From: a virus
Strand: one strand, 5' to 3'
DNA length: 21,542 nucleotides
IMG/VR virus record: IMGVR_UViG_3300033147_000096
Coordinates: 1 to 21,542 of that record
The position numbers were made by a program, and so were the translations under genes. Shown here one piece after another: positions 13,964 through 21,197 of this stretch. Every line of letters starts with the position of its first letter. The stretch's first letter is position 1. The notes below the pieces were generated by a model. It was not told the DNA's origin. It worked only from the letters and a program-made list of their open reading frames with translations, and did not search any database.

Positions 13964-14439
13964 TGGCGTGGGAGACTATCGGCGACGCCGCCGTCGCACC
14001 GTACGCACCGATAACGGCGCGACTGATACGGAAGCTACGCGACCGGTACGCCGCGCTCGCCCCGATGCTTACCCTTTTCCCTTTTCCATGGAACGGGTCG
14101 ACGAGCTCGACGACGGCGGTACCGCTCTCGACGGTCGCGGTATATCTCGACGACCGGTTAATAGGACCGGGCGGTACCCGGATAACCGTAGCCGTGTCGG
14201 CTTCGTACTCGTCGGGCGACGAGCCGCCTAACCCTATCGGGCGCACTCATATTCGACTTGACGGTACCGCCGGCGTCGTCGAGTTAGCGACGCCGGGTGA
14301 TAACTACGTTGGCGACCTGGTCGTCGAGGAAGTGTTAACCCCAGGGGTGTATACGCTCGAGCTCATGGGGCGGGCCGCCCATGCGACGCACTCGCTAAGC
14401 GTTACGCCGTACGAGGTTATGCTCGAGAGGATCGAATAA
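13963..14439 (+). CDS. small tail-tip protein, paralogue of the previous gene
   Basis: A 158-residue protein with an ATG overlapping the preceding stop (TAATG). It begins AWETIGDAAVAPYAPITARL then IRKLRDRYAAL, a variant of the module at the start of the 13466 gene. The C-terminal part is beta-rich with THIRLDGTAGVVELATPGDN and a closing VYTLELMGRAAHATHSLSV. It likely sits with its partner at the tail tip. Enzyme motifs are absent. Its own stop overlaps the spike gene start. Confidence 0.55.
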   Translation: MAWETIGDAAVAPYAPITARLIRKLRDRYAALAPMLTLFPFPWNGSTSSTTAVPLSTVAVYLDDRLIGPGGTRITVAVSASYSSGDEPPNPIGRTHIRLDGTAGVVELATPGDNYVGDLVVEEVLTPGVYTLELMGRAAHATHSLSVTPYEVMLERIE

Positions 14440-15749
14440 TGCGACGATACCAGGGCAAGCGCTACGCGGGGAATACGATTACCGTCGGGCCGTCGCCGGC
14501 CGACGACTATAGCGACCTGCAGGCCGCGCTAGATAACGCGCCGGCTGGCACGTACGACGCACCGACGACTATCCAGCTACGGCCGGGCGTGTTTACGACG
14601 TCGGGCGGCGACGGCTTCTACATGCAGAAAGACTGGACCCATGTCCGGGGCGCCGGGCCGATGGCGAGCATATTGCTTAAAAGCATACGCGGGACGTATA
14701 GCGAAACGGGGGCTCTAAACCTGTTTAACGACTACGTAACGACGCCGCTTGTCGGGGTGAGTGTGAGCGACCTCGGCATAGTCAATCAGTGGCCTATGGA
14801 GGGGCTCGGGGGACCGCAGAGAGCGTCAGGATTCGCGCCGGGCGCCGGGTTAATGATCGGGCTCTGGAGTTATATCGCGACCCATGACACGCGATATACG
14901 GCGTCGGGCGGGTCGGGCAATTACGAGGGGGTTACGATTACTAATTGTCGCCTGGTCGGGCAGCAAGCCGCCGCCGCCGTCGTCGGTAACTCGACCTCGA
15001 GAGGCCGGGTCGTCTTTCAAGGCTGCACGTTTGTCTCGTATCGTACCGGGCTGTTCATCGGCGCTCGAGGTACCATCGAGTCTATCGGCAATCGGTACGA
15101 AGTCGACCACGGTACCGAGGAGCCGTGGCTCGTTAACGCCGCTACGGTTTCGAGCAATAGCACCCCGGTCGCCGGGGTGTTATTCGACCAGAAAGCCGGG
15201 CTCGAGTTTGGGTGCGACGCCGCCGAGGATAGATTCTATTCGAGCGGGGACGTAATCTTTTGCAGAGCGTCCGACGATGCGATGATAGCTGCAGAGACGA
15301 GCGACATATCGAACGATACTAACTGTCAGGTCGCCGGGTTTATAGGTATGAACGTCGGCACCGGCAGATTCTACGGGGTACGTGTCGTCGATCCACAAAT
15401 CACAGTGGTTCAAGACGTCGACTTAGCTTTACGGGTCGGCGGCTTTATGCTGGCCGACGAGGTCGAGCTCGCCGAGGGCGAGTATTGCCTCGAGGGCGGC
15501 TCAATACGGGTCGACCAACTAAGCGCCGGGAGTAACCCGAAGGACGTCGGGTGTATTTCTAGCTGGTCTAATAGTGCGAGTACGATTCTAGTAACGGGGA
15601 CACAATGCTACGGCTCTAACGCCGCCGGTACGGATGTTTTCGCGTTACTCACTAAGCGAGGTAACGCGACGATTAAGGGCGCCGTCTATACCGACCTCGC
15701 GAATAGCTCGCCGCTCGGCACCTTGACCGCTCTGGCGCCGTCGCCATGA
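14439..15749 (+). CDS. tail spike with right-handed beta-helix (pectin-lyase-like fold)
   Basis: A 436-residue protein. After a short head (RRYQGKRYAGN) it shows the classic entry to a pectin-lyase-like helix: TITVGPSPADDYSDLQAALD, then PTTIQLRPGVFTT. Repeated short strands follow (VTITNCRLVGQ, RVVFQGCTFVSYRTGLFIG, GTIESIGNRYEV). Such spikes bind, and sometimes cut, surface polysaccharide. I cannot identify catalytic acids with confidence, so binding is safer than depolymerase. The start overlaps the previous stop (TAATG), and the end overlaps a small membrane-protein gene. Confidence 0.75.
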   Translation: MRRYQGKRYAGNTITVGPSPADDYSDLQAALDNAPAGTYDAPTTIQLRPGVFTTSGGDGFYMQKDWTHVRGAGPMASILLKSIRGTYSETGALNLFNDYVTTPLVGVSVSDLGIVNQWPMEGLGGPQRASGFAPGAGLMIGLWSYIATHDTRYTASGGSGNYEGVTITNCRLVGQQAAAAVVGNSTSRGRVVFQGCTFVSYRTGLFIGARGTIESIGNRYEVDHGTEEPWLVNAATVSSNSTPVAGVLFDQKAGLEFGCDAAEDRFYSSGDVIFCRASDDAMIAAETSDISNDTNCQVAGFIGMNVGTGRFYGVRVVDPQITVVQDVDLALRVGGFMLADEVELAEGEYCLEGGSIRVDQLSAGSNPKDVGCISSWSNSASTILVTGTQCYGSNAAGTDVFALLTKRGNATIKGAVYTDLANSSPLGTLTALAPSP

Positions 15750-16385: not shown

Positions 16386-16639
16386 CACGCTGGACCGGGC
16401 CGGCCGTCGATAAGCTCAAGGTCGAGCTCGAGGCGGCGCAAGAAGCTATCGAGACGGTTCAGGCGTCTAACGTAGCCTTTACGCCGTACTCGACGCTCTC
16501 GAGTATTACGGTTCAGGCCGCGATACAAGAGCTACTCGACGAGGGGGGCGGCGGCGGCGGCGGCGACGCTCGTCTCGACGGCGGCCGGGCTGACTCAACC
16601 TATACCGCCGACCAGGTACTCGATGGAGGGGGCGCCTAA
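16382..16639 (+). CDS. short fibre-linker protein with poly-Gly
   Basis: An 85-residue protein that I start at the TTG overlapping the peptidase stop (TTGA), as for the large terminase. It has a helical/coiled segment (VDKLKVELEAAQEAIETVQA), then VAFTPYSTLSSITVQAAIQE, a seven-Gly run and an ending (ARLDGGRADSTYTADQVLDG) of a type often seen near fibre attachment points. The stop forms TAATG with the fibre gene, so it may act as an adaptor for the fibre. A longer reading from 16157 would only add residues translated out of frame over the peptidase gene. Confidence 0.6.
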   Translation: MTRWTGPAVDKLKVELEAAQEAIETVQASNVAFTPYSTLSSITVQAAIQELLDEGGGGGGGDARLDGGRADSTYTADQVLDGGGA

Positions 16640-17508
16640 TGGCCGATATCATCCAATTTAGACGAGACACGGCGGCGGCCTGGACGTCGGCCGACCCGAC
16701 GTTAGCGGCCGGGGAGCTCGGGCTCGAGACTGATACCGGGAAGCGTAAATTCGGAGACGGCGTAACCGCCTGGGTATCGCTCGGGTACGAGGCCGGCGAC
16801 GCCGACGCTATTCACGATAACGTCGACGGCGAGATTAACGCTCTCACCCTGAAAGCCTCGCCGGTCGTCGGGGATATGCTGCTTATCGAGGACTCGGCGG
16901 GGACGTTCGACAAGCGTAAGTGTACGGTCGAGTCGTTACCTATCTCGGCGGCCGACGCCGACGCTATCCACGATAACCAGGCCGGCGAGATACAGCCGCT
17001 CACGCCGAAAGCCTCGCCGGTCGCCGGCGACGTGTTACTCCTCGAGGACTCGGCGGCGAGCTACGCGAAAAAGAGTCTATTGATATCGGCTCTCCCGGCG
17101 GGTACACCGGGCGCCGACTCGATTACGAATACCGAGCTCGCGAACATGGCTCAAGATACGCTCAAGGGGCGTACGACGGGGGCCGGTACCGGCGACCCGG
17201 TCGACCTGACGAAAGCGCAAGCGCTCGCGATACTCAACGTAACCGACGGGGCCGACCCGACGAGCGCGAACGAGACGTCGCACGGGGACGTCGTACAAGA
17301 CGGCGACTTCGGGAGTAACGGGTACCTCAAGCGTACCGGGGCCGGGGCGTATGGCGTACAGGCAACGCCGATACCGACGGCCGACACGGCGGCCAAGTGT
17401 ACCGACGCCGCCGCCGACGAGACGAGCGCGAACGAGACGTCGCACGGGAACCTAATTCATGACGACGTCGACGGGGAGCGAGACGTCGCACGGGAACCTA
17501 ATTCATGA
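16639..17508 (+). CDS. tail fibre / receptor-binding protein, N-terminal part (frame broken)
   Basis: A 289-residue open frame. Residues 1-50 form the fibre head common to many phages (IIQFRRDTAAAWTSADPTLA then AGELGLETDTGKRKFGDG). Next come two copies of a ~46-residue module built on IHDN..GEI..LT.KASPV.GD.LL.EDSA, then a second module type (ADSITNTELANMAQDTLKGR...GSNGYLKRTGAG). The natural frame ends inside a perfect 46-bp tandem duplication, after which 10 or so unrelated residues lead to TGA at 17506-17508. Removing one copy joins the frame to the ORF that follows. So this is the 5' part of a longer fibre gene, damaged in this genome or in this assembly. Confidence 0.8.
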   Translation: MADIIQFRRDTAAAWTSADPTLAAGELGLETDTGKRKFGDGVTAWVSLGYEAGDADAIHDNVDGEINALTLKASPVVGDMLLIEDSAGTFDKRKCTVESLPISAADADAIHDNQAGEIQPLTPKASPVAGDVLLLEDSAASYAKKSLLISALPAGTPGADSITNTELANMAQDTLKGRTTGAGTGDPVDLTKAQALAILNVTDGADPTSANETSHGDVVQDGDFGSNGYLKRTGAGAYGVQATPIPTADTAAKCTDAAADETSANETSHGNLIHDDVDGERDVAREPNS

Positions 17509-17983
17509 CGACGTCGACGGGGAGTTTACCGGGCTCGCCGATAAGGCGTCGCCGGTATCGGGCGACCTGCTACTCCTCGAGGATTCCGCGGCGAGCGGGG
17601 CTAAGCGTAAGCTCGAGGTCGGCAACTTGCCGGCGGGTACACCGGGCGCCGACTCGATTACGAATACCGAGCTCGCGAACATGGCTCAAGATACGCTCAA
17701 GGGGCGTACGACGGGGGCCGGCACCGGCGACCCGGTCGACCTGACGAAAGCTCAAGCGCTCGCGATACTCAACGTAACGGACGGGGCCGACCCGACGAGC
17801 GCTAACGAGACGTCGCACGGGGACGTAGTACAAGACGGCGACTTCGGGAGTAACGGGTACCTCAAGCGTACCGGGGCCGGCTCATACGACGTGCAGGCGA
17901 CGCCGATACCGACGGCCGACACGGCGGCCAAGTGTACCGACGCCGCCGCCGACGAGACGAGCGCGAACGAGACGTCGCACGGG
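17095..17983 (+). repeat. 354-bp near-identical direct repeat in the fibre gene
   Basis: Copy A is 17095-17448 and copy B 17630-17983, a shift of 535 bp. I count about 12 differences by eye, seven of them clustered near 17344-17364, so roughly 97% identity. Both encode the module running from PAGTPGADSITNTELANM to DETSANETSHG. The 18-mer AACGAGACGTCGCACGGG occurs in the middle and at the end of each copy (17269, 17431, 17804, 17966), plus one variant at 17477. Confidence 0.9.
17433..17524 (+). repeat. perfect 46-bp tandem duplication that shifts the fibre frame
   Basis: Positions 17433-17478 are repeated exactly at 17479-17524. Each unit starts CGAGACGTCGCACGGG and ends GACGTCGACGGGGAG. Forty-six is one more than a multiple of three, so the second copy moves the frame by one base, and the ORF before (codon phase of 16639) and after (phase of 17459) differ by exactly that. 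Removing one copy restores a continuous frame. Confidence 0.92.
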
Positions 17984-18229
17984 CCGCTCGAAGTCGATTA
18001 CGGTCGAGAGCCCGACGGCGAGCGAGGACATAGCCGTATTCTTTACCGACCGGGATATTACGCTCACCGCTATCCGGGCCGTAATCATAGGGACGTCGGT
18101 CGCCTGGTCGCTATACCACGGGAGCTCGAGAGCCTCGGTAACGAATCTAATCGACTCGAATACGACGACGTCGACGACGACGGGCGACGATATTACGTCG
18201 TTTACCGATGCGACGATACCGGCCGATAG
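17459..18229 (+). pseudogene. tail fibre, middle part displaced by a frameshift
   Basis: An open frame of 256 residues whose ATG lies in the first copy of the tandem duplication and is probably not a natural start. From 17479 to 17983 it reads as the continuation of the fibre: SHGNLIHDDVDGEFTGLADK, a third copy of the KASPV.GD.LLLEDSA module, then the 354-bp repeat module. From about 17984 to its stop the text is unlike any fibre (His/Arg/Tyr/Asp-rich) and is a shadow of the true C-terminal domain, which lies one base over. So only the first two thirds is genuine protein text. I treat it as a segment of the 16639 gene, not as a separate gene. Confidence 0.7.
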
Positions 18230-18302
18230 CTATATCGCACTCAAGACGACGGGGGCGACGGCGACCGAGCTACACCTAACGATCTACTACGACGAGGATT
18301 GA
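17985..18302 (+). pseudogene. tail fibre C-terminal receptor-binding domain, stranded without a start
   Basis: In the third frame, 105 residues lead to TGA at 18300-18302: RSKSITVESPTASEDIAVFF, TDRDITLTAIRAVIIGTSV, then a Thr/Ser-rich stretch, ITSFTDATIPADSYIALKTT and ELHLTIYYDED. This is the C-terminal domain seen at the end of many phage tail fibres ('SITIESPT..ED...F', 'ATIPADSFI...T', 'HVTIFYTED'). There is no ATG, GTG or TTG in frame from 17985 to the stop, so it cannot be made alone. The next gene starts at 18306, 3 nt after this stop, which supports this frame as the true gene end. Confidence 0.8.
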
Positions 18303-18305
18303 CCC

Positions 18306-18710
18306 GTGGCGAAGAAAGTCGGCTCGGTCGACGTAACCGACCCACTATTCGACCCGACGCCGGACGAAGAAACCTCGTTTACCATGTCGGGGCAAGCTAC
18401 CCAACAGGCCGGCGGCTCCGGTCCCGATTACGATATGTACTTCCAATGGGACGGGGGCGTCGGCTCCTGGGCTAACCTACCGAGCTCGGCTCAAAATGGG
18501 CTCTCGAGCGGTGACGTCGTCGCCTATTCCAACGTGTCCGACTATAACGAGAAGTCGATTACGGTCGACGCTAACGACGCCGGCTCGTACCAGATACGTA
18601 TGCGGACGATTGACCACCTTGACGGCGACGCCGAGGATCTATCGGCCGCCGTCGACGTTACGGTATCTGGCGTCGGGGGAGAGACGAGGCGCGTCTTTCT
18701 CGTCAATTAG
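18306..18710 (+). CDS. beta-rich protein of unknown function after the fibre gene
   Basis: A 134-residue protein from a GTG 3 nt after the fibre C-terminal domain. It reads as a single Ig/fibronectin-like domain: KVGSVDVTDPLFDPTPDEET, FTMSGQATQQAGG, a DYDMYFQWDGG strand, SYQIRMRTID and a closing AAVDVTVSG. There is no signal peptide or catalytic motif. Location suggests a structural accessory such as a fibre partner or a decoration protein; I cannot choose. The ribosome-binding site is poor, so translation may be coupled to the fibre gene. Confidence 0.6.
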   Translation: MAKKVGSVDVTDPLFDPTPDEETSFTMSGQATQQAGGSGPDYDMYFQWDGGVGSWANLPSSAQNGLSSGDVVAYSNVSDYNEKSITVDANDAGSYQIRMRTIDHLDGDAEDLSAAVDVTVSGVGGETRRVFLVN

Positions 18711-20203: not shown

Positions 20204-20277
20204 ACATCGGGCCGGCGACCGTCGTACGGTGTACTCCCACTACGCCTAAGCGGGGGTCGTCGCGCCCGGTTCTAGCC

Positions 20278-20392
20278 TGTGGAAAAGCCTGTGGAAAAGT
20301 TGTGGATAAGTAGCAGAAAGGAGGCGCCGCTAATGTCCCGTGTTAAGGTCTGCGAGTTTTCCTCAAGATATCCGCGAACTTATCCACAACTT
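20278..20392. other. DnaA-box cluster with 15-bp inverted repeat, candidate replication origin
   Basis: Within the 129-bp non-coding stretch 20204-20332 and the start of the RusA gene there are three same-direction 9-mers: TGTGGAAAA at 20278 and 20290, and TGTGGATAA at 20301 (the complement of TTATCCACA). A fourth box in the opposite direction, TTATCCACA, is at 20380. The two perfect boxes belong to a perfect 15-bp inverted repeat: AAGTTGTGGATAAGT (20297-20311) and ACTTATCCACAACTT (20378-20392). Spacing of the tandem boxes is 11-12 bp, about one helix turn. TTATCCACA is the standard DnaA box; very GC-rich actinobacteria usually prefer TTGTCCACA. The repeat could also fold in RNA around the RusA start region. 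The rest of the stretch (20204-20277) shows nothing I can name. Confidence 0.55.
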
Positions 20393-20794
20393 ACTAACAG
20401 GCGATATCGGGTCGAGATACAGTATCCACCGGAAGCTATCCGGCCTAACGGGCGGGCTAATAGATGGGCTCGAGCGAGGGCTATAGCGTCGTACCGTAGG
20501 GACTGTGGATGGAGCGCTCGAGAGACGCTCTCTAGCAAGCCGCCGCCGCTCATTAAGGCCGCCGCTATATCTATCTATGTACCGGCGACCAGGCGGCGCA
20601 TGGATACCGACAACCTAATAGCCTCGCTCAAGGCGGCATTCGACGGCTTCCAGGACGCCGGGCTACTGGCCGATGATAGGGCGCTCGACTTCACTATTCG
20701 ATACACCGACCAGGTGCATAAGCATAGGCTCGTACTGTACGTGACCGAGATATCCACGCCCCCTACTGCTGCTAGTCTCTCCCCTAATGCATAA
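20333..20794 (+). CDS. rusA: RusA-type Holliday junction resolvase
   Basis: A 153-residue nuclease that cuts four-way DNA junctions, probably to free branched DNA before packaging. The entry YPPEAIRPNGRANRWARARA (31-50) matches the RusA N-terminal pattern. The core MDTDNLIASLKAAFDGFQDA then GLLADDRALD holds the acidic residues expected for metal binding (Asp91, Asp93, Asp104, Asp114, Asp115) and Lys100. The ATG at 20333 is chosen because AAAGGAGG lies at 20317-20324; an earlier in-frame GTG at 20279 would translate the DnaA-box repeats. It overlaps the HNH gene by 8 nt. Confidence 0.85.
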   Translation: MSRVKVCEFSSRYPRTYPQLTNRRYRVEIQYPPEAIRPNGRANRWARARAIASYRRDCGWSARETLSSKPPPLIKAAAISIYVPATRRRMDTDNLIASLKAAFDGFQDAGLLADDRALDFTIRYTDQVHKHRLVLYVTEISTPPTAASLSPNA

Positions 20795-21197
20795 GGGTAA
20801 GCATCTTTGCAGAGGGTGTAAATCGGTACCCGTTGTGATCGGGACGGTATGCTCGGCCTGCAAGCAAACCCGGCCCGACCTGGTACGACCGAGCGCAAGC
20901 GCTCAAGGGTACGGCCGAGCATGGCAGCGGCTACGGCGGGTGATACTCCTGCGGGATTCATGGTGCGTAGCGTGCGGGCGCCGACCTGCTATCGAGGTCG
21001 ACCATATCCTACCGAAGCGCGCCGGCGGGCTCGACGAGCTCGCTAACCTGCAGGGATTGTGTAAGCCGTGTCACTCGAGGAAGACGGCCGGCGAATGCTT
21101 ACAATCGAGCTCGAGGCCGGCGGGAGGGGGGGCCAAAGCTCAAATGGAACCTTCTGCAGAACGCACTCCCAGGGAATACACACGTCGGCGTAAATAA
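20787..21197 (+). CDS. HNH endonuclease, packaging-associated type
   Basis: A 136-residue protein. An N-terminal zinc site (Cys8, Cys11, Cys22, Cys25) is followed by GYGRAWQRLR (41-50), a common lead-in for phage HNH proteins. The HNH core has CVAC (60-63), VDHILPKRAGG (71-81; Asp72, His73), Asn88 in NLQGLCKPCH and CKPCH (92-96). The C-terminal tail is basic and low-complexity. In HK97-like phages such HNH proteins work with the terminase and are encoded beside it. Here the terminase genes are at the other end of the window, consistent with a circular genome. The start overlaps the RusA end. Confidence 0.85.
   Translation: MHKGKHLCRGCKSVPVVIGTVCSACKQTRPDLVRPSASAQGYGRAWQRLRRVILLRDSWCVACGRRPAIEVDHILPKRAGGLDELANLQGLCKPCHSRKTAGECLQSSSRPAGGGAKAQMEPSAERTPREYTRRRK

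Follow-up and report, generated by a model that had tools for sequence, protein, structure and literature searches.

A perfect 46-bp tandem duplication breaks the reading frame of the tail-fibre gene in the phage record IMGVR_UViG_3300033147_000096 and, judged from the sequence, it is probably a local assembly error within a repeat-rich gene. This explanation is favoured because the gene carries two lesions, which lie at the ends of internal repeats, and because there is no homology at the borders of the duplication. It is further strengthened by the combination of the second break, the repeat context in which both breaks occur and the unbroken state of the related genes. If the breaks are indeed assembly errors then receptor-binding genes that are rich in repeats can falsely look inactivated in metagenomic phage genomes, an appearance that would mislead the inference of host range.

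The fibre gene and its three reading frames

The window, which is the whole stretch of DNA analysed here, consists of 21,542 bases with a GC content of 61.9%, contains no Ns and is without a terminal repeat or a tRNA. It houses a head and tail module in the order small terminase, large terminase, portal, major capsid protein and tape measure, with the remaining predicted genes of the module also intact by appearance. The tail-fibre gene region is found on the forward strand at 16639-18302, from an ATG at 16639 to a stop codon at 18300-18302, and the downstream gene begins just past this stop at 18306. No continuous open frame extends to the C-terminal domain, since the coding sequence switches frame twice and thus occupies three successive frames, all on the forward strand. 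The first open frame (16639-17508, 289 aa) encodes an N-terminal Mtd_N head (PF18454, above its Pfam cut-off with an E value of 1.4e-13, residues 5-43), two KASPV.GD.LL.EDSA modules and the first copy of a long repeat, before closing with out-of-frame residues past the duplication. Phage tail-fibre families are matched by the start region of the protein, and the repeated KASPV.GD.LL.EDSA and DVVQDGDFGS modules are like those of related fibres. The middle segment (17479-17983, within the mechanically called ORF 17459-18229) lies in the second frame and contains a further KASPV module together with the second copy of the long repeat.

The first frame break is the duplication itself. The unit at 17433-17478 is followed immediately by a second copy at 17479-17524, with the two copies abutting at 17478/17479 (TRF score 184, 100% match). 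The unit is exactly 46 bases long; copy 1 is preceded by a base other than the one that ends the unit, and copy 2 is followed by a base other than the one that begins it, so that there is zero microhomology at the borders. The initial annotation had described this exact duplication, a frame that moves by one base across it, and a third KASPV.GD.LL.EDSA module on its far side. The first is borne out letter for letter, the second at the junction and the third by the frame reading, which brings the number of such modules in the fibre to three. When the window and the related loci, the latter being partly overlapping contig stretches amounting with the window to about 425 kb, were scanned for tandem units 15-599 bp long that match over 20 bp or more, this was the sole exact tandem duplication, and as the only such case it is not attributable to chance. 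A codon-usage likelihood, for which 18 other genes of the window served as the training set, places the first frame change at 17477-17478, with positions 17453-17500 falling within 3 nats. An exact search of viral contigs with an internal 23-mer of the unit returned 0 matches, and hence no other copy-number state or single-copy allele was seen there.

There is also a second frame break, at 17984-17996 (17973-18025 within 3 nats), which the initial annotation missed. It had correctly taken the fibre modules to continue past the duplication, but its interval stops at 17524 and so takes in the gene's first part only, the end being at 18302. Beyond about 17983 the second frame turns into arginine-rich nonsense, while the third frame, read from 17982, gives GRSKSITVESPTASEDIAVFFTDRDITLTAIRAV...LHLTIYYDED and reaches its stop at 18302. 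A three-frame model with switches at 17478 and 17996 scores 95.4 nats, the best model with one switch scores 67.5, and any single frame taken across the whole gene has a strongly negative codon likelihood; a protein-coding signal is present in all three frames. There is no long homopolymer at the second break, which is therefore not a typical sequencing error and in that respect speaks against an artefact.

The segment of the third frame at 17991-18302 (SKSITVESP...YYDED) is homologous to the fibre C-termini of five other viral contigs, namely those of the related loci L008, L009, L013 and L017 (tblastn E values from 8e-20 to 3e-8) and to that of L060. The third frame evidently encodes real protein, and specifically the true C-terminal domain of the fibre. 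This domain was predicted by AlphaFold2, using an alignment of six sequences, to form an eight-stranded beta-sandwich (pLDDT 88), and in a fold comparison it resembled domains of phage proteins, among them two that contain an Mtd_N domain and one annotated as a tail fibre protein. A search of PDB sequences with a profile of the domain gave weak, irrelevant matches only, its fold matches in the PDB were generic jelly rolls, and by tblastn it had no match in cultured phages. The third frame has no ATG, GTG or TTG start that would yield at least 20 aa. As for the second frame, comparison of the tail of ORF 17459-18229 with the related loci gave nothing significant (best E value 1.8).

Some other features of the window can be recorded here. 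The tail module includes a 436-aa protein, encoded at 14439-15749, that has no Pfam or PHROG match and no relative in cultured phages; by eye it is like a beta-helix spike, and its single-sequence fold prediction is unusable (pLDDT 32). A short tandem repeat at 20274-20311, with about 3 copies of the 12-bp unit AGCCTGTGGAAA, sits at the beginning of ORF 20279-20794; this frame is by eye RusA-type resolvase-like, and ORF 20787-21197 is by eye HNH endonuclease-like.

Internal repeats and related fibres

Central to the interpretation of the two breaks is the repeat structure of the gene. A long direct repeat of 354 bp is present on the forward strand as copy A at 17095-17448 and copy B at 17630-17983, the two being offset by 535, and it holds exact runs of 92 and 84 bp. 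Each break in this 1.66-kb gene adjoins the right-hand boundary of one copy of the 84-bp exact repeat: the 46-bp duplication begins inside copy A (17365-17448), 15 bp short of its right end, and the second break comes directly past the right end of copy B (17900-17983). Two random points both fell within 16 bp of the right end of one or other long repeat in 0.6% of trials, a figure that is post hoc. A 28-bp motif also occurs three times in the gene.

With the first frame applied to copy A of the long repeat and the second to copy B, the two differ at 11 of 117 codons, and nine of these 11 differences are synonymous; in the alternative frames synonymous changes account for 0 of 10 and 0 of 11. 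That the differences are mostly synonymous implies that both copies have been selected as protein. On this comparison of codons, the modules diverged before the frame was split, or else the split is not real. The fibre itself has therefore grown by duplication of the 354-bp module under purifying selection.

Relatives of the fibre modules are encoded on about 40 viral contigs. A single ORF holds both the shared modules and the C-terminal domain in L008, L009, L013 and L017, and no within-gene frame break was found in the relatives examined (39 loci), many of which offered few or no separate module joins and so provide only a modest base rate. The lone apparent frame change among neighbouring module matches is in L032, where it was rejected as a broken fibre: the second match opens at query residue 5, where the Mtd_N head starts, so that a further fibre gene is taken to begin there. 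At the DNA level no match to the fibre gene was found in cultured phages, and a terminase search for close sister phages identified only three relatives, with 39-41% identity. Fibre-module relatives, with a best segment of 63%, were also observed at L061:3943-5169 on contig JAUVHR010000007.1 from a Candidatus Thorarchaeota MAG bin, which may represent viral DNA that has been binned with that MAG.

Probable misassembly and the alternatives

How might an assembler have produced this arrangement? It would have to pick between continuations wherever one of the two 84-bp runs comes to its right-hand end. At the first site two overlapping pieces could have been placed end to end with their 46-base overlap left unmerged, and at the second site a small indel could have been introduced, in which case no phage molecule would have the arrangement that was deposited. 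Zero microhomology at the borders is as expected from an unmerged overlap, although random breakpoints are likewise often free of it. Unmerged overlaps that leave duplicate sequence and wrong local repeat numbers are known errors of metagenome assembly, as is the artificial concatenation of identical sequence, which has been described in deposited phage sequences (Chen et al. 2020, PMC7111523). Repeats are, however, hot spots for real slippage and recombination too, and proximity to a repeat cannot by itself tell an error from a mutation.

A real and recent inactivation is a possible but distinctly less likely account. Here the population would carry both lesions, the fibre would stop after about 280 residues without its C-terminal domain, and the phage would depend on another adsorption protein. 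The deposited sequence is unambiguous, frameshifts in a dispensable fibre are known from the side tail fibre gene stf of lambda PaPa (PMC9659904), and the traces of purifying selection in all three frames would fit a very recent loss; upstream tail genes, such as the putative one at 14439-15749, could serve in adsorption. Set against this, two separate frame-breaking events are required in one gene while the rest are seemingly intact, the relatives examined showed no break within the gene, lambda PaPa represents a laboratory variant as opposed to an environmental consensus, and the model of the putative second fibre at 14439-15749 is unusable. The initial annotation's reading of a truncated fibre is supported for the sequence as deposited, but its suggestion of a reversible switch, in which gain or loss of a 46-bp copy through slippage or recombination toggles the fibre C-terminus in a mixed population, fares poorly and is very unlikely. 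An exact tandem unit of 46 bp, a length not divisible by three, does alter the frame with copy number, and exact tandem repeats can revert, but the break at 17984-17996 keeps the C-terminal domain out of frame at any copy number. As this second break is independent and downstream, gaining or losing the 46-bp unit could not by itself toggle the full fibre. Nor did the 23-mer search of the viral collection reveal another copy-number state, and a resolvase or invertase, a reverse transcriptase and a long near-perfect inverted repeat were likewise not found in the record.

A broader version of such variation, more doubtful still, is that the natural population is truly broken at two repeat-associated sites and that recombination between the internal repeats continually makes and unmakes the breaks, leaving the C-terminal adhesin domain absent from most particles and present in a minority, as a repeat-driven contingency system. 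Two established routes to fibre variation were also considered and rejected. An invertible cassette of the Mu/P1 type has no resolvase/invertase-family match in the 21.5-kb record, where the inverted repeats are weak, imperfect and scattered with no long near-perfect pair, and a diversity-generating retroelement of the Bordetella Mtd type is without a reverse transcriptase (RVT_1) match in the same record, which is possibly a fragment. Least likely of all is that programmed frameshifting joins the three frames or that the later pieces are made from internal starts. All three frames do have the appearance of coding sequence, and the ATG of ORF 17459-18229 falls within the first ORF. Yet a programmed frameshift within a perfect duplication would have the same 15 residues encoded twice, and the relatives need no frameshift; with internal starts, the third frame is the one that has matches but lacks a usable ATG, GTG or TTG, whereas the ORF that does have a start carries a tail with no significant match among the related loci.

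Comparison with known systems

Duplications within tail fibres have precedent. Short duplications of a small domain in the gp37 adhesin of T4 are associated with host range, as reportedly described by Tetart et al. in 1996, and these reportedly keep the reading frame and expand the host range. The tail-fibre frame in the present record differs from those in-frame T4 duplications in that it is lost. Enterococcus phage EfV12-phi1 similarly has tandem duplication inside a putative tail-fibre gene, which arose under host resistance and was detected by coverage and long reads (PMC6365445). Its duplications are 1.8-kb in length, in-frame and leave the fibre open, in contrast to the 46-bp, frame-breaking unit described here.

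With respect to errors of assembly, the scaffolding error outlined by Chen et al. 2020 (PMC7111523) usually leaves Ns, whereas the fibre junction is without them. Finally, the closest likeness in outcome to a broken fibre gene is with stf of lambda PaPa, where a fibre gene has been frameshifted into truncated frames (ORF401/ORF314) and intact versions exist elsewhere (PMC9659904). Were the breaks real, the present record would add one more phage to those with a disabled fibre, of which lambda already provides an example. The lambda case, though, involves a single frameshift in a cultured phage, while the gene described here has two breaks, one of which is a 46-bp duplication, in an uncultured assembly.
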